From contig NZ_CP019427.1 of assembly GCF_009834545.1 (NCBI RefSeq), positions 3,416,001 to 3,480,000 on the forward strand: a stretch of 64,000 bases of DNA. The letters run 5' to 3'. This stretch comes from Pseudomonas sp. S04. Its GTDB lineage: Bacteria; Pseudomonadota; Gammaproteobacteria; Pseudomonadales; Pseudomonadaceae. The translations under genes and the position numbers were made by a program. Positions 21,317 to 31,479 of this stretch are shown in pieces. Position 1 is the first letter of the stretch. The number at the start of each line of letters is the position of its first letter. The notes beneath the pieces were generated by a model. The model was not told where the DNA came from, searched no databases, and saw only the letters and a program-made list of their open reading frames with translations.

Positions 21317-23794
21317 TCAGAAGTCGGCTTTTACCGAGACCATGAAATTACGCGGCTCGCCGTAGTAGTTACCAAAGGTCTCGGTGCCGATGGTGCTGTA
21401 GTAGCGCTTGTCGAACAGGTTGTTGCCATTGAGCGCCAGCGACCAGGTGTCGTCGATGCGGTAGCCGACCCGGCCGTTCCACACGGCGTACCCGCCCTGG
21501 CTGATCTTTTCGCCACTCAAGGGTGACACGCGGAAGTTGTCGCTTTGCGCATTGACCCCGGCCCCCAGGGTGAATCGCTCCAGCGCTCCCTCCAGGGCGT
21601 AGTCGCCCCACATACGCAGCACGTGGCGTGGCACATAGCTGTTGAACGCCTCACCGTTGAGACTGGTGTCGATGTCATCGAGGGTCTTGGTCTGGGTGTA
21701 GGTGTAGCCGGCGAGCAACTGCAGACGCTCGATCAGCTCACCGCTGACCTCCGCTTCGAAGCCTTGGGCGCGGACTTTGCCGGCGTTGACGTAGCAATAA
21801 CCGTCCGAGGATGGGCAGGACGAGTTGTAGTCGGTCTGGGCCTGGTCTTTCTGGATGGTGCGGAACAGGTTGAACGAGCTGTTGAGACGGCCACCGTACC
21901 ACTCGCCCTTGATCCCCAATTCATAGCTCTGCCCTACCAGCGGCTTGAGCGCCGCGCCGCTTTCGGAGCGCAGGTTGCCTTGCGGGGTGAAGATTTCCGA
22001 ATAGCTGGTATAGGCCGTGAGGTTTTCATTGAGGTCCAGCAGCAGCCCGGTAAACGGCGTGACCTGCCCGGTTTCCTTGGTCTTGGCCGTCTGTGAAATA
22101 CCCGAGTTGATGAACAGCGAATCGGTTTCGGAGTCGTACCAGCTGACCCGCCCACCGAGGACAAAGGTCAAGGGGTCGGCCAGTTTCAGGCGGGCCGTGG
22201 AGTAAACCCCATACTGCTTGGTGACGCTGTCCACCGGACCACCACGGGTCGAGTTGGCGATGAAATAACTGTCATCGGGTTTCGGCAGGTGCTTGTCGGG
22301 ATTGAATACGTCCTGGGTCTGCGGCAGGAATGCCACCGAGTAGAAGTCGTTCTTGTTCGAGCGACTGCCATTGAGGCCGACGATCAACTCATGCTCGCGC
22401 CCCAACGCCTCGAATTTGCCGTCCAGGTAAGCATCCAGGCCATAGTCGACCTGATCGTAGTCGTACATGCTGCCCAGCATGCGCACGGTGCCGTTGCCTG
22501 GGGTGATCGCGCCGGACGGGAACGCGTATTTGATGTCCTGGGTGTTTTTGCTATAGACCCCGGCCACTTTCAGCGCCCAGTTGTCATTCAACTGGTGCGC
22601 CAGGTCACCGAAGGTGGTGGTGCGCTGGCTGCGCCAGGTATTCCAGGACGGGTCCAGGCAGGTCGAGCGGCTGAGCTTGAGGTCGCTGCCATCGCGGTAG
22701 CGCGGCATGCCACCCCAGCACGGGTTGGCGTCGACATCTTCGTAAGCAATGCCCAAGCCCAGGGTGGTGTCGGCGGACAAGTCGTAATCCAGTGCACCGT
22801 AATAGACCTGGTCCTTGCGACTGGCATCGTCATAGAAGTAATGCTTGCTCTGCTCGGCGATCACCGCACGGCCACGCAACGTTCCGGACTCGTTCAGCGG
22901 GCCGCCGGTATCGACCTGGCCTCGGTAGTTGTCCCAGGTTCCGCCGGACAGGCTCAACTGGGTCTGCGGGGTACTTTGCCCGCGCTTGCGCACAAAGTTG
23001 ACGCCACCGGCGGTGCCGCCCGAGCCCTTCATCATCCCGGCTGCCCCGCGCAGCACCTCGACCCGATCGTAGTAGGCCATGTCACTGCTGAAACTGTCGG
23101 CCTGGACATAGGAGTTGCCCATGTCCAGCGGCACACCGTCGTACTCATACTGCCCGGACATGCGAAAACCCCGGGAGTAGAAGTACTTGCCGCCCATGGT
23201 CGAGTCATAGACGGTAATGCCCGGGGTCTTTTCCATGACCTGGTCGATGGTGTTGAGATTCTGGTCGTCGAGCATCTTGCGGGTGATCACGGTCACCGAT
23301 TGCGGGGTTTCCCTGAGCGAATGGGCCCCCTTGGCGATGGTCACCGCACCGGTGGTGTACGAACCGCTGCCTTCGGTCGTCGCCCCGAGTTCCTGGGCAT
23401 TGACGTTGGTCGCCGCCAACTCCAGGGCCGAGCCTGCGGACGGACGGGGACGCAGCACATAACTGCCGTTGGCCTGGGGTTCGGCTTGCAAGGCGCTGTT
23501 GGCGAGAATCCGCGCAAACCCATCGCCGACGCTATAGGTACCGCGTAAACCCGCTGATTGTTGGCCCGCGGTCTGCCGTGCGTCGAACGAGATGGCCGCG
23601 CCCGCCGCACTGGCGAATCGGCTCAGCACCTCGGTCAGGCTGCCGGCCGCGATATCGTAGGATTGCACCGCCTGCTGCGACGGCGCCGCGGCCTGGGCAG
23701 TCGCCACACCAGCGCCGCTGGCTGCCAGCGCGAACAGGCCAATCCTCACCGCAGTCGCCAACCGACCCGCACCCGGCTTGTACACAAAAGACAT
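21317..23794 (-). CDS. TonB-dependent siderophore receptor with signalling (STN) domain, locus 1
   Basis: 825 residues from ATG 23792-23794, preceded by GGAGGG. A signal peptide ends near ATAQA; the STN signalling domain (SYDIAAGSLTEVLSRFASAAG...GTYSVGDGF) spans about residues 45-120; then the plug (SLRETPQSVTVITRKMLDDQN, RVEVLRGAAGMMKGSGGTAGGVNFV) and a 22-strand barrel ending in phenylalanine (SVKADF). It imports a ferric chelate through the outer membrane and reports occupancy to the FecR encoded just upstream. The chelate cannot be named; the FpvA/FhuE-like siderophore class is likely. Confidence 0.92.
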   Translation of the reverse strand: MSFVYKPGAGRLATAVRIGLFALAASGAGVATAQAAAPSQQAVQSYDIAAGSLTEVLSRFASAAGAAISFDARQTAGQQSAGLRGTYSVGDGFARILANSALQAEPQANGSYVLRPRPSAGSALELAATNVNAQELGATTEGSGSYTTGAVTIAKGAHSLRETPQSVTVITRKMLDDQNLNTIDQVMEKTPGITVYDSTMGGKYFYSRGFRMSGQYEYDGVPLDMGNSYVQADSFSSDMAYYDRVEVLRGAAGMMKGSGGTAGGVNFVRKRGQSTPQTQLSLSGGTWDNYRGQVDTGGPLNESGTLRGRAVIAEQSKHYFYDDASRKDQVYYGALDYDLSADTTLGLGIAYEDVDANPCWGGMPRYRDGSDLKLSRSTCLDPSWNTWRSQRTTTFGDLAHQLNDNWALKVAGVYSKNTQDIKYAFPSGAITPGNGTVRMLGSMYDYDQVDYGLDAYLDGKFEALGREHELIVGLNGSRSNKNDFYSVAFLPQTQDVFNPDKHLPKPDDSYFIANSTRGGPVDSVTKQYGVYSTARLKLADPLTFVLGGRVSWYDSETDSLFINSGISQTAKTKETGQVTPFTGLLLDLNENLTAYTSYSEIFTPQGNLRSESGAALKPLVGQSYELGIKGEWYGGRLNSSFNLFRTIQKDQAQTDYNSSCPSSDGYCYVNAGKVRAQGFEAEVSGELIERLQLLAGYTYTQTKTLDDIDTSLNGEAFNSYVPRHVLRMWGDYALEGALERFTLGAGVNAQSDNFRVSPLSGEKISQGGYAVWNGRVGYRIDDTWSLALNGNNLFDKRYYSTIGTETFGNYYGEPRNFMVSVKADF

Positions 23795-23844
23795 GCTTAC
23801 CCTCCCCCAGAACCATCCAAATGAAATCACTGAGGGATGAGCCG

Positions 23845-23851
23845 AACGACG
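23845..23851 (-). promoter_or_regulatory. Candidate FecI-type promoter element before receptor 1
   Basis: On the minus strand TCGTTCG lies 51 nt before the receptor ATG. The same heptamer lies 56 and 64 nt before two other receptors in this window, fitting the CGTT-type -10 element of iron-responsive ECF sigma factors. No common -35 was found. Confidence 0.35.
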
Positions 23852-23900
23852 TCGATAAAAAGTGCACATGAGAATCAATTAATTTTCTGGCCGCCGCGCT

Positions 23901-24872
23901 TCAGGCCGCTGCAGGCCCGGAAACATTGACCCAATAGCGACTGTAGTGCTGGATCTTCAGACCGAAGCCGCTGTGCAGCGCAGCCAGTGCCCGGTCAGTG
24001 TCATCCACCGGAAAGGCGCCGGAAATCTTCATCCGCGCAATCTGCTGGTCGCAGCGCAGTACCCCGGGACGATAGCGCGAGAGATCGGCGAGCAACTCGC
24101 CCAGCGGTCGGTCGATGGCGATGATGCTGCCCTGCTGCCAGGCGCCGACCGTGGCATCGTTCTGGCGAAGCGTGCCCAAGGTCTGGGAGGTGAAATCCAG
24201 GCGTTGCCCGGCGTCGAGACGAACCGGTTGCCCGCCCCGCGCCAGGCTCACCTGCAAGGTGTTATCCAGCACCGCCACCTCACCGCCAGCGACCTGGGAG
24301 CGCACGATAAAGCGCGAGCCCAGGGCCAATACCTGAGCGTGAGGGGTGCTGACGCGCAGCGGCCGCTTCAGTGAATCCTGCGCGCTGCTGACCAGCATTT
24401 CCCCCCACAGTAATTCCAGCACCCGTTGCGCGCCGTCGAAGCGCACGTTGACCGAAGTGTCGGTGTTGAGCAGCAACGAACTGCCGTCCGCCAGACGCAC
24501 CTCACGCCGCTCGCCCACGGCAGTGCGGTAGTCGGCCAACAGGTTCTGGGTGGTCTCGCTACGCCAGCCCAACCACCCCAGGGAACCGGCCGACGCCAGC
24601 ACCAGCACACTGCGCAATACCTGCCGGCGCGAGTGCTGGACACCGTGCAAGGTCGGCGCCACGAAGTTGCCCGGCACCAGGTCCATCTGCTGGCGTACTG
24701 ACTCGATGCGTTGCCAGGCCTGGCGGTGCAGCTCATCGGCAGCCTGCCAGGCATGCCAATCCTGTCGATCCTGGTCGCTTGCCTGACCGGACTGCAGCCG
24801 TGCATACCACTGCGCGGCCGCACTCAGCGCCTGCAGTTCAGGACCGGACAAGCTGGACTTGAGGTGACTCAT
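23901..24872 (-). CDS. FecR-family anti-sigma factor/sigma regulator, locus 1
   Basis: 323 residues from ATG 24870-24872, overlapping the sigma-factor stop by ATGA. The cytoplasmic N-terminal part (about 1-85) contains the FecR WYARLQSGQASDQDRQDWHAW segment that binds sigma; one membrane segment follows near residue 90-105 (VLRSVLVLASAGSLGWLGW). The periplasmic part has the FecR domain (GERREVRLADGSSLLLNTDTSV) and a C-terminal STN-like fold (ISGAFPVDDTDRALAALHSGF). It transmits the receptor signal through the inner membrane to the adjacent FecI-like factor. Confidence 0.92.
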   Translation of the reverse strand: MSHLKSSLSGPELQALSAAAQWYARLQSGQASDQDRQDWHAWQAADELHRQAWQRIESVRQQMDLVPGNFVAPTLHGVQHSRRQVLRSVLVLASAGSLGWLGWRSETTQNLLADYRTAVGERREVRLADGSSLLLNTDTSVNVRFDGAQRVLELLWGEMLVSSAQDSLKRPLRVSTPHAQVLALGSRFIVRSQVAGGEVAVLDNTLQVSLARGGQPVRLDAGQRLDFTSQTLGTLRQNDATVGAWQQGSIIAIDRPLGELLADLSRYRPGVLRCDQQIARMKISGAFPVDDTDRALAALHSGFGLKIQHYSRYWVNVSGPAAA

Positions 24873-25390
24873 GACAGCTGCAACTGCAGTTGCATCAGGC
24901 AGCAATGCTCCATGGCCTTGGCCATGTGGTTATTCACCGTACGCGTGGAAATGCCCAGGCGCTCGGCGATGCGCGGATACGTCAGGCCTTCGAACTGCGA
25001 CAGGATGAACACCTGCTTGACCTGCTTGCCCAGGCCTTCGAGCATGCGGTCGATGTCCAGCAGCGCCTGCAGCATGATCGCCTGCTCTTCGAGCGACGGT
25101 TGCTGAGATTGCGGGGCGCTGGCCAGGACTTCAAGGTAGGACTGCTCCAGCGAACGCCGGCGAAACAGATCGATCAACAGGCCCTTGGCGACCTGCGACA
25201 GGTACGGCCGCGGCTCACGAATCTCTAGCGCATTACGTGCCTTGAGCACCCGCACGAAAGTGTCCTGCGTCAAGTCTGCCGCATCGCAGGCACTGCCCAG
25301 GCGCTGGCGCAGCCAGCCCTGCAACCAGCCGTGATGCTCGTGGTACAGGTCGTGGACGGCACTGCGCAGGGAAAGATCGTTGGCGGACAT
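24869..25390 (-). CDS. FecI-like ECF sigma factor, locus 1
   Basis: 173 residues from ATG 25388-25390, a start with a weak ribosome site but a good family N-terminus (MSANDLSLRSAVHDLYHEHH). Region 2 is HGWLQGWLRQRLG...DLTQDTFVRVLKARN; region 4 is LSQFEGLTYPRIAERLGISTRTVNNHMAKAM. It directs RNA polymerase to the receptor promoter when released by FecR. A Fur-box-like sequence lies 20-40 nt upstream of the start, so the operon should be iron-repressed. Confidence 0.93.
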   Translation of the reverse strand: MSANDLSLRSAVHDLYHEHHGWLQGWLRQRLGSACDAADLTQDTFVRVLKARNALEIREPRPYLSQVAKGLLIDLFRRRSLEQSYLEVLASAPQSQQPSLEEQAIMLQALLDIDRMLEGLGKQVKQVFILSQFEGLTYPRIAERLGISTRTVNNHMAKAMEHCCLMQLQLQLS

Positions 25391-25410
25391 GACGGCGCAG
25401 GTTCGTGATT

Positions 25411-25429
25411 GATAATGTTTCGCATTGTC
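25411..25429 (-). promoter_or_regulatory. Fur-box-like sequence upstream of FecI locus 1
   Basis: GATAATGTTTCGCATTGTC matches 14 of 19 positions of the classical GATAATGATAATCATTATC, including a complete left arm, 21 nt upstream of the sigma-factor ATG. Confidence 0.6.
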
Positions 25430-25556
25430 ATGTGGCGCGGGTGGGCTTGGCAATAGGCAGTTGCCATTCGTCTGCCGCACCCACCCTTGGTCGCCAGGGA
25501 TTAAATCTGGTCTAGGCTTGAAGCCACCTCTACGTGCATGCAGGAGCTGCCACGTC

Positions 25557-25775
25557 ATGTCATTCCAAGCCTATCTGGACAACATCCAGGCCAAGACCGG
25601 CCAATCACCGGCTGACCTCAAGCAATTGGCCAACGCCAAAGGGTTCGCCGAAGACGGCAAATTGAAAGCCGGAGTCAAGGCCGGCCAGATCATCGAATGG
25701 TTGAAAGCCGACTTCGACTTGGGTCATGGGCATTCCATGGCCATCTATGCATTGCTCAAGGGTAAAGAGTCATAA
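25557..25775 (+). CDS. Small DUF4287-type protein
   Basis: 72 residues from ATG 25557 (AGGAG 14 nt upstream, MSFQAYLDNIQAKTGQSPADL). The sequence, with helix-rich SPADLKQLANAKGF, KAGVKAGQIIEWLKADFDLGHGHSMAIYALLKG, matches the compact DUF4287 domain found as a stand-alone protein or joined to DUF5655. Function unknown. Divergent from the FecI gene of locus 1 and upstream of the magnesium transporter leader. A terminator hairpin at 25912-25936 probably ends its transcript. Confidence 0.82.
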   Translation: MSFQAYLDNIQAKTGQSPADLKQLANAKGFAEDGKLKAGVKAGQIIEWLKADFDLGHGHSMAIYALLKGKES

Positions 25776-25867
25776 TGATAAATTGTCATCTTACTGTCAT
25801 ATACAAACGACAGCTAAACGCTAACTTACACCGATTACGACTGCTTCCTGTCTAATTGCTAAACAAC

Positions 25868-25884
25868 TGTTAATTCACCGTTGA
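25868..25884 (+). promoter_or_regulatory. Possible PhoP box at the mgtA promoter
   Basis: Two half-sites TGTTAA and CGTTGA are separated by 5 nt, the spacing of PhoP direct repeats ((T/G)GTTTA-N5-(T/G)GTTTA). The match is imperfect and the distance to the -10 is longer than in the textbook class, so this is tentative. Confidence 0.35.
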
Positions 25885-25909
25885 CTTAAAACACTCGCCT
25901 GAGTAGATT
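25881..25909 (+). promoter_or_regulatory. Sigma-70 promoter for the mgtA leader
   Basis: TTGACT (25881-25886), a 17-bp spacer and TAGATT (25904-25909) form a near-consensus promoter. Predicted start is about 25916, inside the hairpin at 25912-25936. Confidence 0.6.
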
Positions 25910-25911
25910 GC

Positions 25912-25936
25912 CCCGGGTCGGTAAACCCGGCCCTTT
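25912..25936 (+). terminator. Intrinsic terminator overlapping the mgtA promoter start
   Basis: CCCGGGTcggtaAACCCGG followed by CCCTTTTTT. A transcript starting at the predicted mgtA start would lack the left arm, so the hairpin most likely stops readthrough from the DUF4287 gene. Confidence 0.7.
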
Positions 25937-25958
25937 TTTCAACTCACAAAAGAATTCA

Positions 25959-26063
25959 ATGGACACAGTATCTAGACGCTGCCCGACCGATACGTATACG
26001 CCAGGTCGGGCCACTTACCCAGTCATCGACGGGACTCGACCTCGGTCGGGCATGCTGCGCTAG
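25959..26063 (+). CDS. Candidate leader peptide 1 of mgtA (34 aa)
   Basis: ATG 25959 opens a 34-codon frame, MDTVSRRCPTDTYTPGRA..., ending with TAG at 26061-26063. It is rich in proline, threonine and arginine, recalling the proline-bearing MgtL leader of Salmonella mgtA, but no sequence identity is claimed. The ribosome site is weak (AAAAGAA 4-10 nt upstream). It spans the competing hairpin arms at 25981-26051, so ribosome progress would change folding. Could be chance; comparative data would decide. Confidence 0.4.
   Translation: MDTVSRRCPTDTYTPGRATYPVIDGTRPRSGMLR
25981..26051 (+). promoter_or_regulatory. Mutually exclusive hairpin arms in the mgtA leader
   Basis: GCCCGACC at 25981-25988 can pair with GGTCGGGC at 26004-26011 or equally with an identical GGTCGGGC at 26044-26051. 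The second copy can also form a local hairpin (CTCGAC/GTCGGG, loop CTCG). Such a choice between helices is typical of a leader switch. Confidence 0.55.
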
Positions 26064-26085
26064 AGCCTGAGGCTCCAACGTAACC

Positions 26086-26117
26086 TGCCTCGCCGGCGTC
26101 AGTCCGGTTGCGAGGCA
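26086..26117 (+). promoter_or_regulatory. Hairpin sequestering the ribosome site of the 96-aa ORF
   Basis: TGCCTCGC (26086-26093) pairs with GCGAGGCA (26110-26117), extended by CGG/CCG above a three-base bulge. The right arm contains GAGG (26112-26115), the Shine-Dalgarno site for ATG 26122. A preceding small hairpin GAGCC-TGA-GGCTC lies at 26063-26075. Confidence 0.6.
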
Positions 26118-26121
26118 TGTT

Positions 26122-26412
26122 ATGAACTTCATCTGCACCTACATCCCAGGGGTTCGCCCCCTTGCCACAGCGGCGCGAGCCCTGCTGCGCCGCCCGCCAG
26201 CGGCCCTCCCACGGGCGCTTTTCAACGCCCCGCCTGCACGCCTGCGATCTCACCCGCTGGGGCATTGGCATGTCTGCTCGGCGAGTGGCCAGCTCGAGCA
26301 ACGCTGGAGCCTCGATGACGGCCAGGAACCTCCAAGTCGGGGCTTCGTGCACCTGATGCAACAGGCCATTTTGCTACTCGGCCGGTTGCTCGGGGCGCGC
26401 ACTTTCAGTTGA
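26122..26412 (+). CDS. Leader ORF 2 upstream of mgtA, unknown 96-aa protein
   Basis: ATG 26122 with GAGG 6 nt upstream opens a 96-codon frame. The product begins MNFICTYIPGVRPLATAARA, is rich in proline, arginine and alanine (LLRRPPAALPRALFNAPPARL), and ends with a leucine-rich amphipathic stretch (LMQQAILLLGRLLGARTFS). I do not recognise a family. The strong ribosome site hidden in a hairpin, and its place between promoter and mgtA, suggest regulated translation, either as a functional small protein or as a sensing leader. Overall base composition resembles coding sequence. Confidence 0.55.
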   Translation: MNFICTYIPGVRPLATAARALLRRPPAALPRALFNAPPARLRSHPLGHWHVCSASGQLEQRWSLDDGQEPPSRGFVHLMQQAILLLGRLLGARTFS

Positions 26413-26421
26413 TCTGAAAGT
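26401..26421 (+). promoter_or_regulatory. Hairpin at the end of leader ORF 2
   Basis: ACTTTCAGttgatCTGAAAGT, a perfect 8-bp stem containing the ORF stop in its loop region; no U tract follows, so it is not an ordinary terminator. Confidence 0.5.
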
Positions 26422-26511
26422 TCTCCAGGCACCAATTATCGACGTTTTCCTTATTCAGGAATTCGGCAACTTTCTATTGCCCGTTAAACCATTAATAGAG
26501 CGAGGACAAGC

Positions 26512-26652
26512 ATGGACGACGCCAGTAGACGGTTCGCTGTATGCCTGTGTTCCAGCGGTGTACGGCGAACATTAAAACAGCATAACAACAACTCCCAGAA
26601 TCGATCGCTGCCGGGCGATTCGATGCACTTTCGCTCGCCTTTTATTAGTTGA
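26512..26652 (+). CDS. Candidate leader peptide 3 of mgtA (46 aa)
   Basis: ATG 26512 preceded by GCGAGGA (a strong ribosome site, spacing about 5) opens a 46-codon frame, MDDASRRFAVCLCSSGVRRTLK..., stopping at 26650-26652, 45 nt before the mgtA ATG. It begins MDxxSRR like leader ORF 1. It contains a run of three asparagines after HN-rich sequence. No family recognised. Its stop-to-start distance would allow coupling with mgtA translation. Confidence 0.45.
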   Translation: MDDASRRFAVCLCSSGVRRTLKQHNNNSQNRSLPGDSMHFRSPFIS

Positions 26653-26667
26653 GTGGTTGCTGTGTCG

Positions 26668-26692
26668 TGCCGCCAGCCAGCGGCAGGAGCAT
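26668..26692 (+). promoter_or_regulatory. Hairpin next to the mgtA ribosome site
   Basis: TGCCGC-cagcca-GCGGCA (26668-26685) abuts AGGAG at 26685-26689, the ribosome site of mgtA ATG 26698. Confidence 0.45.
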
Positions 26693-26697
26693 CCAGC

Positions 26698-29412
26698 ATG
26701 AACACAGTAAAAACCGCAAAAAAAGTCCTCAAGGGTAGCCCACGCGACGCCGGCAAACTGTCAATGCGTGCCGCCCGTGAAGCGCAGAACGGCCTGGCCG
26801 TGACCCTAGCCAACCTCAAGACCAGCAGCGTCGGCCTGACCGAACTCGACGCCGAAGGCCGCCTGCTGCGCGACGGCAGCAACGAGGTGGCGCACGACCA
26901 GCCACCCCACGCCCTGGTGCAAGTACTGAAGGCCTTCAACAACCCCTTTATCTATGTGCTGCTGACCCTGACGGTCATCAGCTTCATCACCGACTTCTGG
27001 ATCCCTCTGCGGGACGGCGAAGACACCGACCTGACCGGCGTCATCATCGTCCTGGTGATGGTCCTGGCCAGTGGCCTGATGCGCTTCTGGCAGGAGTACC
27101 GCTCGGGCAAATCCGCCGAAGCCCTGAAGACCATGGTGCGCACCACCGCCAGCGTGCTGCGCCGCGACCAGCCGGGCAGCACGCCGACCCTGCGCGAAGT
27201 ACCCATGCGCGAACTGGTGGCAGGCGACATCGTGCAGCTGTCGGCCGGCGACATGATCCCCGCAGACATCCGCCTGCTCGAATCCCGGGACCTGTTCATC
27301 AGCCAGGCGGTGCTGACCGGTGAAGCCTTGCCGGTGGAGAAATACGACACCCTGGGGGATGTCGCGCAGAAATCCGCGGCGAGCGTGACCAGCGAGCAGA
27401 ACAACCTGCTGGACCTGTCCAACATCTGCTTCATGGGCACCAACGTGGTCAGCGGCACCGCGCGCGCCGTGGTGGTCGCCACCGGCCCACGCACCTACTT
27501 TGGCTCGCTGGCCAAGGCCATCGTCGGCTCGCGCACGCAAACCGCCTTCGACCGGGGCGTCAACAGCGTCAGCTGGCTGCTGATCCGCTTCATGCTGGTG
27601 ATGGTGCCGGTGGTGTTGCTGATCAACGGCTTCACCAAGGGCGACTGGAGCGAAGCCTTCATGTTTGCCCTGGCCGTGGCGGTCGGCCTGACCCCGGAAA
27701 TGCTGCCGATGATCGTCAGTGCCAACCTGGCCAAGGGTGCGGTGGCGATGGCCAAGCGCAAAGTGGTGGTCAAGCGCCTCAATGCGATCCAGAACTTCGG
27801 TTCGATGGACGTGCTGTGCACCGACAAGACCGGCACCCTGACCCAGGACAAAATCATCCTCGAGCATCACCTCGACAGCGCCGGCCAGCGCGACGACGCC
27901 GTGCTGGAACTGGCCTGGCTCAACAGCCACCACCAAAGCGGCATGAAAAACCTGATGGACCAGGCGGTGGTGCAGTTCGCCCGGCAGAACCCACATTTCA
28001 AGCGACCCTTGGCCTACCGCAAGGTCGATGAATTGCCGTTCGACTTCATTCGCCGGCGCCTGTCGATCATCGTCGAAGATAACTGCGCCGATCACCTGCT
28101 GGTGTGCAAGGGTGCGGTCGAGGAAATGCTCGCCATCAGCAGCCACCTGCACGAGGACGGCATAGACGTGCCCCTCGATGACCGGCGCCGTCAAGCCTTG
28201 CTGCGCCTGGCCAACCAATACAACGAAGACGGCTTCCGCGTGTTGGTGCTGGCGACCCGGCACATCCCCAAGGCCCAGAGCAAAGCCCAGTACGCCACTG
28301 GCGACGAGCGCGACCTGGTGATTCGCGGCTTTCTGACCTTCCTCGATCCGCCCAAGGAAACGGCCGGCCCGGCGATTGCTGCGCTGCGGGACATGGGCGT
28401 GACCATCAAGGTGCTGACCGGCGACAACCCCGTGGTGACCTGCAAGATCTGCCGTGAAGTCGGCCTGGAACCCGGCAAGCCGCTGCTCGGCCAGGACATC
28501 GAGCCGATGGACGACGCGACCCTGCAACAACAGGTCGAGACGCGCACGGTGTTTGCCAAGCTAACGCCGCTGCAGAAATCCCGGGTGCTCAAGGCGCTGC
28601 AAGCCAACGGCCACACTGTCGGTTTCCTCGGCGACGGGATCAACGACGCCCCGGCCCTGCGCGATGCCGACGTCGGCATCTCGGTGGACAGCGGCACCGA
28701 CATTGCCAAGGAATCAGCCGACATCATCCTCCTGGAAAAAAGCCTGATGGTGCTCGAGGAAGGTGTGCTCAAGGGCCGCGAGACCTTCGGCAATATCATG
28801 AAGTACCTGAACATGACCGCCAGCTCCAACTTCGGCAACGTGTTCTCGGTGCTGGTGGCCAGCGCGTTCATTCCCTTCCTGCCGATGCTGGCGATCCACC
28901 TGTTGCTGCAGAACCTGATGTACGACATCTCCCAACTGGCCCTGCCGTGGGACAAGATGGACAAGGAATACCTGAGCAAACCGCGCAAATGGGATGCGCA
29001 GAACATCGGGCGGTTCATGCTGTGGATCGGGCCGACTTCGTCGATCTTCGACATCACCACCTTCGCCCTGATGTGGTACGTGTTCGCGGCCAACAGCGTG
29101 GAAATGCAGAGCCTGTTCCAGTCCGGCTGGTTCATCGAAGGGCTGCTGTCCCAGACCCTGGTGGTGCACATGCTGCGCACCCGCAAGATCCCGTTCTTCC
29201 AGAGCACCGCGGCGCTACCGGTAATCCTGATGACCGGCCTGGTCATGGTGCTGGGCATCTACATTCCGTTCTCGCCACTGGGCAACCTGGTCGGCCTGAC
29301 GCCGCTGCCGTGGTCCTACTTCCCGTGGCTGGTGGGCACCCTGCTCAGCTACTGCGTGGTCGCCCAGGTGATGAAGACGCTCTACATCCGCCGTTTCAAG
29401 CAGTGGTTTTGA
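26698..29412 (+). CDS. mgtA: Magnesium-transporting P-type ATPase MgtA
   Basis: 904 residues from ATG 26698 (AGGAG 8 nt before it; the in-frame GTG at 26653 is rejected). Length is close to enteric MgtA. An N-terminal cation-ATPase domain is followed by the actuator loop with TGEALPVEKYD, the phosphorylation motif CTDKTGTLTQD (Asp about 376), the nucleotide-binding domain, the hinge GDGINDAPALRDADVGISVD and six C-terminal helices (NLMYDISQLALPWDKMD is typical of MgtA/MgtB). It drives Mg2+ inward across the inner membrane. A leader of about 780 nt with three small ORFs precedes it. Confidence 0.95.
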   Translation: MNTVKTAKKVLKGSPRDAGKLSMRAAREAQNGLAVTLANLKTSSVGLTELDAEGRLLRDGSNEVAHDQPPHALVQVLKAFNNPFIYVLLTLTVISFITDFWIPLRDGEDTDLTGVIIVLVMVLASGLMRFWQEYRSGKSAEALKTMVRTTASVLRRDQPGSTPTLREVPMRELVAGDIVQLSAGDMIPADIRLLESRDLFISQAVLTGEALPVEKYDTLGDVAQKSAASVTSEQNNLLDLSNICFMGTNVVSGTARAVVVATGPRTYFGSLAKAIVGSRTQTAFDRGVNSVSWLLIRFMLVMVPVVLLINGFTKGDWSEAFMFALAVAVGLTPEMLPMIVSANLAKGAVAMAKRKVVVKRLNAIQNFGSMDVLCTDKTGTLTQDKIILEHHLDSAGQRDDAVLELAWLNSHHQSGMKNLMDQAVVQFARQNPHFKRPLAYRKVDELPFDFIRRRLSIIVEDNCADHLLVCKGAVEEMLAISSHLHEDGIDVPLDDRRRQALLRLANQYNEDGFRVLVLATRHIPKAQSKAQYATGDERDLVIRGFLTFLDPPKETAGPAIAALRDMGVTIKVLTGDNPVVTCKICREVGLEPGKPLLGQDIEPMDDATLQQQVETRTVFAKLTPLQKSRVLKALQANGHTVGFLGDGINDAPALRDADVGISVDSGTDIAKESADIILLEKSLMVLEEGVLKGRETFGNIMKYLNMTASSNFGNVFSVLVASAFIPFLPMLAIHLLLQNLMYDISQLALPWDKMDKEYLSKPRKWDAQNIGRFMLWIGPTSSIFDITTFALMWYVFAANSVEMQSLFQSGWFIEGLLSQTLVVHMLRTRKIPFFQSTAALPVILMTGLVMVLGIYIPFSPLGNLVGLTPLPWSYFPWLVGTLLSYCVVAQVMKTLYIRRFKQWF

Positions 29413-29440: not shown

Positions 29441-29535
29441 AGTTATTTTGCTGTACATCCATACATATAAAGATTGATCCAGACCGCTGCACCGCGCATG
29501 CTGTGCAGCTTGTTACCTGAAGACTGATGGTCGAT

Positions 29536-31479
29536 ATGCGTCTGTATCTGTGTGAAAAACCTTCCCAGGCCAAAGACATTGCCGCGGTGCTCGGCGCCAG
29601 CCGGCGTGGCGATGGCTGCTGGCTGGGGTCGGGGATCACCGTCACCTGGTGCATCGGCCACTTGCTGGAAACCGCGCCACCGGATGCCTACGACGCCCGT
29701 TATAAACGCTGGGTGCTGGCCGACCTGCCGATCATTCCCGAGAAGTGGAAGATGCTGGTCAAGCCCAAGACCGCCAGCCAGTTCAAGGCGGTCAAGCGCC
29801 TGCTGGGCGAGGCCCAGGAACTGGTGATCGCCACCGACGCCGACCGGGAGGGGGAAATGATTGCCCGCGAACTGGTGGAGCACTGTCGTTATCGCGGGCC
29901 GATCCAGCGGCTGTGGTTGTCGGCGCTCGACGATGCCTCGATCCGCAAGGCCCTGGCGGCCCTCAAGCCGGGAGCGGAAACCTTCAGCCTGTATCACTCG
30001 GCACTGGGTCGCTCGCGGGCCGACTGGTTGATCGGCATGAACATGAGCCGGCTGTTCACCCTGCTCGGGCGCCAGTCCGGTTACCAGGGCGTACTGCCGG
30101 TGGGTCGGGTGCAGACCCCGACCCTGCGCCTGGTGGTGGACCGCGACCGCAGCATCGCCGACTTCGTGCCGGTGCCCTATTGGGCGATCGACGTGCAGTT
30201 GCTGCACGACGGTATGCCGTTTACCGCCCAATGGCGGGCGCCGTCGGACCTGTGCGATGAACAGGACCGTTGCCTCAATCAAGCACTGGCCCAACAAGCG
30301 GCGCACGCCATGCGCAATGCCGCCAGTGCGCGCCTGGTCACACTGCGCACCGAGCGGATGCGGGAGGTCGCACCACTGCCGTTCGACCTCGGCACCCTGC
30401 AGGAAATCTGCTCGAAAAAGCTCGGCCTGGGGGCCCAGGAAACCCTCGACGTGGCGCAGGCGCTGTACGAAACCTACAAAGTCATCACCTACCCGCGCAG
30501 TGACTGCGGCTACCTGCCCGTGAGCCAGCATGGCGAAGCGGCGGCGATTCTCCAGGCCCTGGGCCGCGCGGACCCAAGCCTCGCGCCGTTGCTCCAGCAC
30601 CTGCAACCGCAACGCCGCTCCAGGGCCTGGAACGATGCCAAGGTCAGCGCCCACCACGGCATCATCCCCACTGCCGCCGCCCACAACTTCGAGCGACTGA
30701 GCGGCAAGCACCGGGCGGTCTACACCTTGATTCGTGCGCGCTACCTGGCGCAGTTCCTCCCCAACCATGAGTACGACCGCACCCAGGCCGACTTCGACTG
30801 TGCCGGCCAGGCACTGCGCGCGGTGGGCAAGCAGGTGGTGGAACCGGGTTGGAAACGCGCCATGCCCGAGGCCCTGGCAGCGGCCAAGGGACGCGAACCA
30901 GCCGCCCCGCAAAACCTGCCACCCTTGACCCAGGGCAGCGACTATCCAGTTGCCGGCGTCAACCTCAAGGACCTCTGGACCCAGCCACCCAAGCCGTTTA
31001 CCGAAGGCGACCTGATCAAGGCCATGAAAAACGTGGCCAAGCTGGTACAGGACCCGCTGCTCAAGCAAAAGCTCAAGGACACCACCGGCATCGGCACCGA
31101 AGCCACCCGCGCGGGGATCATCCAGGGGCTGCTGGACCGTGGTTACCTGGTCAAGCACGGCAAGGCGCTGGCTGCCACGCCGGCGGCCTTCAGCCTGATC
31201 GACGCCGTCCCCCGGGCCATCGCCGATCCCGGCACCACGGCCATCTGGGAACAAGCCCTGGACATGGTGCAGAGCGGTGAGATGAGCCTGGAAGAGTTTG
31301 TCGCCAAGCAGGCCGCCTGGATGAGCAAGCAAGTGGGCCGCTGCACCGGCCTGCGCCTGACCATCAGCGGCCCGGCAAGCCCGGCCGGCAAAGGCGCGAC
31401 GCCCTGGAAAGGCAAACGCAAGAGCACTGCGCGCAAAACCGCAACGACCGGCAAACGCAAGGCCAAGCCCAAGGCCTGA
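29536..31479 (+). CDS. topB: DNA topoisomerase III
   Basis: 647 residues from ATG 29536 (MRLYLCEKPSQAKDIAAVLG); an ATG three codons earlier (29527) is possible. TOPRIM domain with ATDADREGEMIARELV near residue 95-110, type IA core with QTPTLRLVVDRD, and the catalytic tyrosine in VITYPRSDCGYLP (about Tyr319). It relaxes and decatenates DNA by single-strand passage. No zinc-ribbon is seen at the C-terminus; instead a lysine/arginine-rich tail (residues about 620-647) likely binds DNA. Stand-alone gene followed by REP repeats. Confidence 0.95.
   Translation: MRLYLCEKPSQAKDIAAVLGASRRGDGCWLGSGITVTWCIGHLLETAPPDAYDARYKRWVLADLPIIPEKWKMLVKPKTASQFKAVKRLLGEAQELVIATDADREGEMIARELVEHCRYRGPIQRLWLSALDDASIRKALAALKPGAETFSLYHSALGRSRADWLIGMNMSRLFTLLGRQSGYQGVLPVGRVQTPTLRLVVDRDRSIADFVPVPYWAIDVQLLHDGMPFTAQWRAPSDLCDEQDRCLNQALAQQAAHAMRNAASARLVTLRTERMREVAPLPFDLGTLQEICSKKLGLGAQETLDVAQALYETYKVITYPRSDCGYLPVSQHGEAAAILQALGRADPSLAPLLQHLQPQRRSRAWNDAKVSAHHGIIPTAAAHNFERLSGKHRAVYTLIRARYLAQFLPNHEYDRTQADFDCAGQALRAVGKQVVEPGWKRAMPEALAAAKGREPAAPQNLPPLTQGSDYPVAGVNLKDLWTQPPKPFTEGDLIKAMKNVAKLVQDPLLKQKLKDTTGIGTEATRAGIIQGLLDRGYLVKHGKALAATPAAFSLIDAVPRAIADPGTTAIWEQALDMVQSGEMSLEEFVAKQAAWMSKQVGRCTGLRLTISGPASPAGKGATPWKGKRKSTARKTATTGKRKAKPKA

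Follow-up and report, generated by a model that had tools for sequence, protein, structure and literature searches.

A conserved leader of mgtA in Pseudomonas with two putative tandem RNA switches

The mgtA gene of Pseudomonas sp. S04 is separated from its promoter by a leader of ~780 nt that carries three short reading frames, and this arrangement raises the question whether the leader controls mgtA and, if so, by which means. In the window (the whole analyzed stretch of 64,000 nucleotides) mgtA starts at 26698, and a profile search of predicted proteins matched its product to TIGR01524 (1400 bits). The promoter, the long leader and the frames of 34, 96 and 46 codons reported in the initial annotation are all present:

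25881–25909, + strand: promoter TTGACT-17-TAGATT, with a matching promoter at the equivalent position in 112 of 113 loci (the window being one of them)
25915–25939, + strand: hairpin with a T run behind it, lying where the transcript is expected to begin (comparison of 113 loci)
25959–26063, + strand: ORF1, 34 codons, with the nearly invariant start CAATGGACACAGTATCTAG; its stop TAG (26061–26063) lies within the open-form hairpin of D1
26122–26412, + strand: ORF2, 96 codons, with a late EPPSR/DPQSR motif (supported by dN/dS, motif and homologues)
26512–26652, + strand: ORF3, 46 codons, starting with MDDAS; its stop (26650–26652) lies in the D2 hairpin
26698–29412, + strand: mgtA, magnesium-translocating P-type ATPase (TIGR01524 and NF011702, far above cut-off)

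The promoter is the sole promoter-like site of the + strand within 25700–26720, and its sequence suggests a transcription start at about 25916. The hairpin at the expected 5' end has an energy of -4 kcal/mol or better in all 113 loci and is followed by a run of at least 4 T in 89 of them; it may be a terminator of upstream reading or a 5' cap, both being possible. A direct repeat TGTTAA-N5-CGTTGA (25868–25884) overlaps the -35 element in the window and resembles the PhoP consensus. It is a weak candidate for a PhoP box, as the pattern is present in just 2 of 113 loci, with CTGAAC repeats or a palindrome at that site elsewhere.

Among 398 Pseudomonas genomes, 113 carry the 5' part of the leader according to a DNA search (single loci are designated by L numbers). 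In 110 of these 113 loci it lies 632–824 nt upstream of mgtA on the same strand, the distance being counted to the first mgtA codon from the base that corresponds to 25896, after removal of the duplicate loci L009, L010 and L023. The exceptions are L115, with 136 nt before an mgtA remnant, L041, which is situated at a contig end, and L022, which has no mgtA. The genome of L115/L273 has a leader copy before the decayed mgtA as well as an intact paralogue elsewhere. Conservation of the arms and frames in related species, proposed as a check together with the initial annotation, is thus borne out by the occurrence of the leader, by covariation of hairpin P2 and by the coding character of ORF2 (see below).

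A scan with CAATGGACACAGTATCTAG over a collection of 84,980 species gave 113 stretches. The name attached to them is Pseudomonas in 111 cases, Pantoea sp. in one and Longirhabdus in one; the last match is probably due to chance. In 104 of these 113 named stretches mgtA is located 536–761 nt downstream of the AUG, and the remaining nine comprise six that end within 725 nt, two without mgtA (L189 and L197) and the Longirhabdus one. Among 298 genomes of the family, representing 19 genera, models of the two putative switch domains D1 and D2 match 25 and 21 genomes, respectively (E 0.001), all within one genus, in searches whose stricter filters may lose weak matches. No second copy of D1 was found elsewhere in the genome to which the window belongs.

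The ORF1 AUG is kept in all 113 loci (112 parsed, L056 by eye), and the 5' part of the leader contains a nearly invariant stretch of 19 bases. In nearly all of the 112 parsed loci ORF1 begins with MDTVS[SR]RC, after which the frame drifts, giving a length of 25–37 and stops TGA, TAA and TAG in 62, 37 and 13 loci. Judging from the sequences compared, the peptide is conserved no further than about 8 codons. Within these codons third positions are frozen and the rare variants include several amino-acid changes, which indicates that the constraint on the ORF1 start acts mostly on RNA; the dN/dS of ORF1 is 0.68 over 54 pairs. No clear ribosome site was found before ORF1 in the loci compared. Of 111 loci, 103 have the ORF1 stop within the open-form hairpin and the other 8 have it 7–10 nt before the hairpin, which is weak evidence of translation because all three frames stop there in most loci. 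ORF1 had been described as proline-rich and likened to MgtL. In the window 4 of its 34 residues are indeed prolines; in 83 of 112 loci there are 0–2, and the likeness is lost in relatives, where the peptide drifts. With so few prolines and a drifting frame, ORF1 was rejected as a conserved proline-rich peptide.

The first putative switch, D1, spans 25971–26124 and consists of the following elements:

25971–25979, + strand: D1 segment 1, UCUAGACGC, nearly invariant, pairing with 26057–26064 in 96.0% of cells
25980–26012, + strand: D1 hairpin P2, with GCCCGACC and the first GGTCGGGC (arm 25980–25987 with 26005–26012, covariation)
26049–26064, + strand: D1 segment 2, GGCAUGCUGCGCUAGA, overlapping the second GGTCGGGC (pairing analyses across loci)
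26079–26091, + strand: D1 segment 3, CGUAACCUGCCUC, common to open and closed forms (folding and shuffle control)
26112–26124, + strand: D1 segment 4, the ORF2 ribosome site GAGG with the AUG (folding and shuffle control)

In the predicted open form the strand CGUAAC..GCCUC (26079–26091) pairs with GGCAUGCUGCG (26049–26059), and in the predicted closed form the same strand pairs with the ORF2 start region, ribosome site and AUG together (26112–26124). Folding gives the two forms side by side in all 112 loci examined, compared with 12.6% of shuffles; a closed form in which every base of the ORF2 AUG is paired is predicted for 109 of the 112, compared with 14.7% of shuffles. The mean energies are -15.2 kcal/mol for the open form and -21.2 kcal/mol for the closed one (111 loci, L088 absent), the latter value coming partly from shortened stretches (17 of the 111 loci, the window included, were cut at an earlier ATG). 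Covariation of the two forms is slight, since most bases there are invariant: the open form has 3 double-changed pairs, no more than shuffled alignments, and 9 double-changed cells versus 4.6 (2/500 shuffles), and the closed form does not rise above shuffles (the alignment is offset in one clade).

Hairpin P2 is supported by covariation. GCCCGACC is located at 25981–25988 and the two identical copies of GGTCGGGC at 26004–26011 and 26044–26051; the initial annotation had proposed that the arm switches between these copies. Both pairings are possible in the window, where the predicted fold joins the 5' arm to the second copy, stacked on CUAG.CGC/GCGCUAG (z -3.33). Across 59 aligned loci the first pairing is formed in 94.1% of cells, with 69 double-changed cells (0/500 shuffles) and 4 pairs with a double change (reached by 42/500). 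The second pairing is formed in 86.9% of cells, no better than shuffled (243/500), so the identity of the two copies is local and their exchange was rejected as a conserved switch; the conserved putative switches are instead those of the strand 26079–26091 and of 26601–26697. The alignment used (A1, 59 rows) excludes the decayed L115 and 53 near-duplicates; RNAalifold gave a poor consensus on these 59 mixed sequences, with the clades offset by indels.

The second putative switch, D2, covers 26601–26697 and is situated at the ribosome site of mgtA:

26601–26608, + strand: D2 segment 1, UCGAUCGC, almost without variation across 24 loci, where it is 98.2% paired, and 79.0% paired across 30 loci
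26615–26628, + strand: D2 segment 2, GCGAUUCGAUGCAC, forming a covarying helix with segment 3
26659–26673, + strand: D2 segment 3, GCUGUGUCGUGCCGC (pairing analyses of open and closed forms)
26680–26697, + strand: D2 segment 4, the mgtA ribosome site GCGGCAGGAGCAUCCAGC (closed-form pairing, folding)

Its open form is a long hairpin that joins a GCGGCUCGACAUAC-like strand to a GUGUGUCGUGCCGC-like one. In 30 loci 14 of 26 pairs of this hairpin are double-changed versus 7.5 in shuffles (0/500), slid versions giving at most 6; in another clade (24 loci) 93.4% of cells are paired and 11 cells are double-changed versus 2.6 (0/500). The closed form has 7 double-changed pairs in the 30 loci (0/500), with 85.6% of cells paired versus 85.0% in shuffles (133/500); in the other clade the pairing is 79.1% versus 78.5% shuffled, and nothing exceeds the shuffles. 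Both forms of D2 are predicted in 100 of 110 loci, and 45% of shuffles also allow both. The 6-nt complementarity count was uninformative for D2, with 30 full matches in 107 loci against a shuffled mean of 20.3 and maximum of 28, or in a second comparison a mean of 23.1 and maximum of 30. The alignments A2 (30 rows) and A3 (24 rows) were derived from those 57 of the 59 A1 rows that had a mapped mgtA, leaving out L054, L056 and L058, whose ribosome site was missed by the pattern.

A D2 model built from the 30 loci recovers 53 of 60 held-out leader loci with E of 0.004 or better and gives no match in 7 paralogue loci or in 3 loci without mgtA. The seven leader loci missed by the model are also devoid of the ORF3 AUG, and both losses probably represent one event; L032 and L049 have lost this AUG and kept D2. 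In the ORF3 survey (n=107, without L054, L056 and L058) all 49 long ORF3s stop within the D2 hairpin and all 35 short ones stop before D2; one clade has an ORF3 of 11–12 codons that ends before D2. The ORF3 motif is absent in 23 of 107 loci, some of these being pattern misses (L038 has an ATG). The starts of ORF1 and ORF3 coincide at 13 of 20 bases, a weak likeness: among the 1697 other 20-mers of the window that begin with ATG, 5 reach this value, ORF3 included. Assignment of ORF3 as TimP-like is weak, for this sole NCBIfam hit among the three short frames (E 0.027) scores 14.7 bits where the cut-off is 45. An additional hairpin is possible in several clades in the gap between ORF2 and ORF3 (26413–26511).

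ORF2 is open in all 112 loci examined and is preceded in each of them by a GAGG/GGAG/AGGA site; as the frame was sought by an ATG at the aligned place, its presence in 112 is partly by construction. The dN/dS of 0.36 over 50 independent pairs indicates that ORF2 is coding. Its late [DEKN]P[PQ] motif is found in 110 of 112 loci compared with 5.6% of shuffled peptides, and the two ORF2s devoid of it (L043 and L081) look frameshifted. Length and middle part are very variable, and the putida-type clade keeps the ends only; the late motif survives even where ORF2 is 36–75 codons long (the clade of P. entomophila, P. soli and P. mosselii). A profile search gave 191 homologues, and those named among the best 120 are hypothetical proteins from Pseudomonas except for one Rhodococcus record. 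Pfam has no match for ORF1, ORF2 or ORF3, nor did a further domain search find a known domain in ORF2. On these sequence grounds ORF2 represents a conserved family without a known domain, either a small protein or a leader peptide. The C excess peaks within ORF2 in 106 of 110 loci; mgtA itself is C-rich too, and a Rho site is therefore not specifically indicated by composition.

Taken together, the comparison shows conservation of the leader, coding of ORF2, covariation of P2 and of the D2 open hairpin, and a potential for both forms of each domain. The region is very probably a regulatory leader with two switch domains. The best explanation, which we regard as reasonably probable, is that two tandem RNA switches gate ORF2 and then mgtA. 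Mg2+ is probably the signal, as judged by the downstream gene.

In each domain segment 3 would have two alternative partners, an upstream strand in the open form and the ribosome site in the closed form, and the input would be translation of the short upstream frame. At low Mg2+ early elongation would be slowed and the ribosome held on the invariant first codons of ORF1, thereby covering D1 segment 1; segments 2 and 3 would then pair and the ORF2 start would open. Translation of ORF2 across the C-rich message, perhaps excluding Rho, would allow transcription to reach mgtA, where D2 at the ribosome site would act as a further checkpoint. When Mg2+ is plentiful, D1 would adopt its closed form, the more stable of the two, and so keep down ORF2 and hence mgtA. 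This direction of switching and the role of the ribosome are tentative. In equilibrium folding of 111 loci with a ribosome placed on the ORF1 start, the predicted accessibility of the ORF2 start rises by over 0.1 in 48% and falls in no locus; the figures are 24% up and 4% down for a ribosome at codons 6–8 and 33% up and 7% down at the ORF1 stop. On this basis a slow ribosome on the first codons is tentatively taken as the open signal. The same calculation gives no clear sign either way for D2, and as a whole this modelling is equivocal.

Alternatively, D1 may be a true riboswitch. Its invariant 5' part, together with P2 and P4, would then form an aptamer that binds Mg2+ or some different ligand, ORF1 would be untranslated, and ligand binding would stabilize the pairing of segments 1 and 2 and hence the closed form at ORF2. 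We consider this rather unlikely, although the base-level constraint on CAATGGACACAGTATCTAG (frozen third positions, drifting frame, rare variants that alter amino acids) and the lack of a clear ribosome site before ORF1 speak for it; it has to face the ORF1 AUG kept in every locus, the stop placed in the open-form hairpin (where in most loci all three frames end in any case) and the failure of Rfam riboswitches to match. Chance resemblance in ordinary unconstrained upstream DNA, where small ORFs and short inverted repeats are frequent given a GC-rich genome, is extremely improbable in view of the 19-base near-invariant stretch, the promoter shared by 112 of 113 loci, the coding ORF2 and the covarying hairpins.

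Two other readings assign the central role to ORF2, and both appear improbable to us. ORF2 might itself be the sensor, with stalling or slow translation at the late [DE]P[PQ] motif setting mgtA expression, for example via Rho or D2. The near-universal presence of this motif, its retention in the shortest ORF2s and the C-richness of ORF2 would fit such a role. Of interest here are L022, L189 and L197, in which mgtA and D2 are gone and the retained D1 and ORF2 now precede a Na/Pi symporter gene: the motif is lost in L189, as the sensor reading would predict, but it reads EPHSR in L197 and is retained in L022. In the window, moreover, the motif (at about 26326–26340) is distant from D2, which begins at 26601. 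Alternatively, ORF2 might be a gene for a small protein in the mgtA operon, with D1 closing its start and with a product that matters, e.g. as an MgtA modulator; protein-level selection along ORF2 and its 191 homologues agree with this, while the very variable length and middle part, of which the putida-type clade keeps only the ends, and the lack of a known domain do not.

Control of mgtA by leader RNA in response to Mg2+ has been worked out in enterobacteria. The mgtL leader of E. coli and Salmonella likewise precedes mgtA and has a short frame overlapping alternative helices, and in 110 of 113 Pseudomonas loci mgtA also follows directly on the same strand. In E. coli, mgtA is reported to stay off when mgtL is translated to its end and to come on when ribosomes drop off early at low Mg2+; EPDP is the defining motif of MgtL, and a Rho-dependent terminator is exposed (PMC11282234). 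The proposed open signal, a ribosome on early codons, parallels this drop-off. In contrast, the Pseudomonas ORF1 has MDTVS[SR]RC in place of EPDP or another acidic/proline start, there are two putative switch domains instead of one as well as a long ORF2, and the predicted switches close ribosome sites where the enterobacterial leader exposes a Rho-dependent terminator. By this analogy the Pseudomonas leader would work like mgtL leaders without being a member of them, since both the defining peptide motif and Rfam fail.

The M-box is a family in Rfam, and with it and other Mg2+ riboswitches the leader shares the position of a cis-acting RNA before a Mg2+ transporter gene. Neither the M-box nor any other Rfam family is matched in the leader or in the loci of two relatives: no family reaches the gathering score, and even at E up to 10 there are four poor matches, magnesium families absent among them. 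The suggestion of a distinct pseudomonad system made in the initial annotation agrees with this result and with the occurrence of the leader in pseudomonads only. In design the two domains resemble translational attenuators of the erm type, in which a small upstream frame precedes four segments, the last one containing the ribosome site, that pair as 1:2 plus 3:4 or as 2:3. Both D1 (112/112) and D2 (100/110) have the predicted potential to exchange partners in this way, their fourth segment likewise containing a ribosome site, and the upstream frame overlaps segments 1–2, namely ORF1 for D1 (103/111 stops in the hairpin); for D2, ORF3 overlaps in 49 of 107 loci and ends before the domain in 35. 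Unlike the erm-type attenuators, the putative ones of Pseudomonas stand two in series per transcript, are not drug-induced and have an ORF1 peptide that is not conserved. It is conceivable, though we hold this with some doubt, that they constitute a new family of Mg2+ sensors, an independent invention of translation-based Mg2+ sensing in which tandem attenuators of the same design gate ORF2 first and mgtA second as a two-step check, each being read by ribosomes that translate a small frame, with an MD..S[RS] start common to the two frames.

If the leader does what mgtL leaders do but by means of unrelated parts, early translation became coupled to Mg2+ uptake on at least two occasions, and the Pseudomonas species of plants and soil (P. 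fluorescens, P. protegens, putida-type) would be a test system for such coupling. Two serial switches per transcript would be unusual, and ORF2 adds a conserved family without a known domain. A literature search by title and abstract, with subscription journals mostly outside its coverage, found no description of a Pseudomonas mgtA leader. P. aeruginosa PA4824–PA4826, which include mgtA, respond to Mg2+, and the sensor used in that study is the Salmonella leader; insertions in the mgtA neighbor PA4826 affected fitness and a clean deletion did not (PMC11218974). This is a similar case of Mg2+-regulated mgtA with a neighboring gene. No P. aeruginosa record occurs among the 113 CAATGGACACAGTATCTAG stretches or the best 120 of 191 ORF2 homologues.

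The leader follows a particular kind of MgtA. By TIGR01524, MgtA is present in 216 of the 398 genomes of the genus. All 19 leaderless mgtA genes examined encode a paralogue 51–55% identical to the MgtA of the window, whereas leader-borne MgtAs are 69–100% identical to it; in this sample, therefore, the leader accompanies one MgtA subfamily. Upstream of these 19 paralogues no match to the leader was found. The paralogue loci (L255–L272 and L274) share a recurring upstream sequence of their own, CTCTCATCGACGCTGA with CGCCTGCC further on, which is seen in many of the 19 and is possibly another leader; the four loci of this kind that were scanned gave no Rfam match.

The Na/Pi symporter gene mentioned above occurs in 29 of the 113 named stretches, in 27 of them beyond mgtA at 3.4–3.9 kb from the search motif, whereas the distance is 0.7 kb for L189 and L197; that of L197 matches NF037997 above cut-off. 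In the window the leader is preceded by a DUF4287 gene (25557–25775), which is matched in only 2 of the 113 named stretches. Further upstream, on the - strand (21317–25558), lies what by eye we take to be a cluster of TonB-receptor, FecR-like and sigma-factor genes, and mgtA is followed at 29527–31479 by a gene that is presumably topoisomerase III-like, likewise judged by eye.
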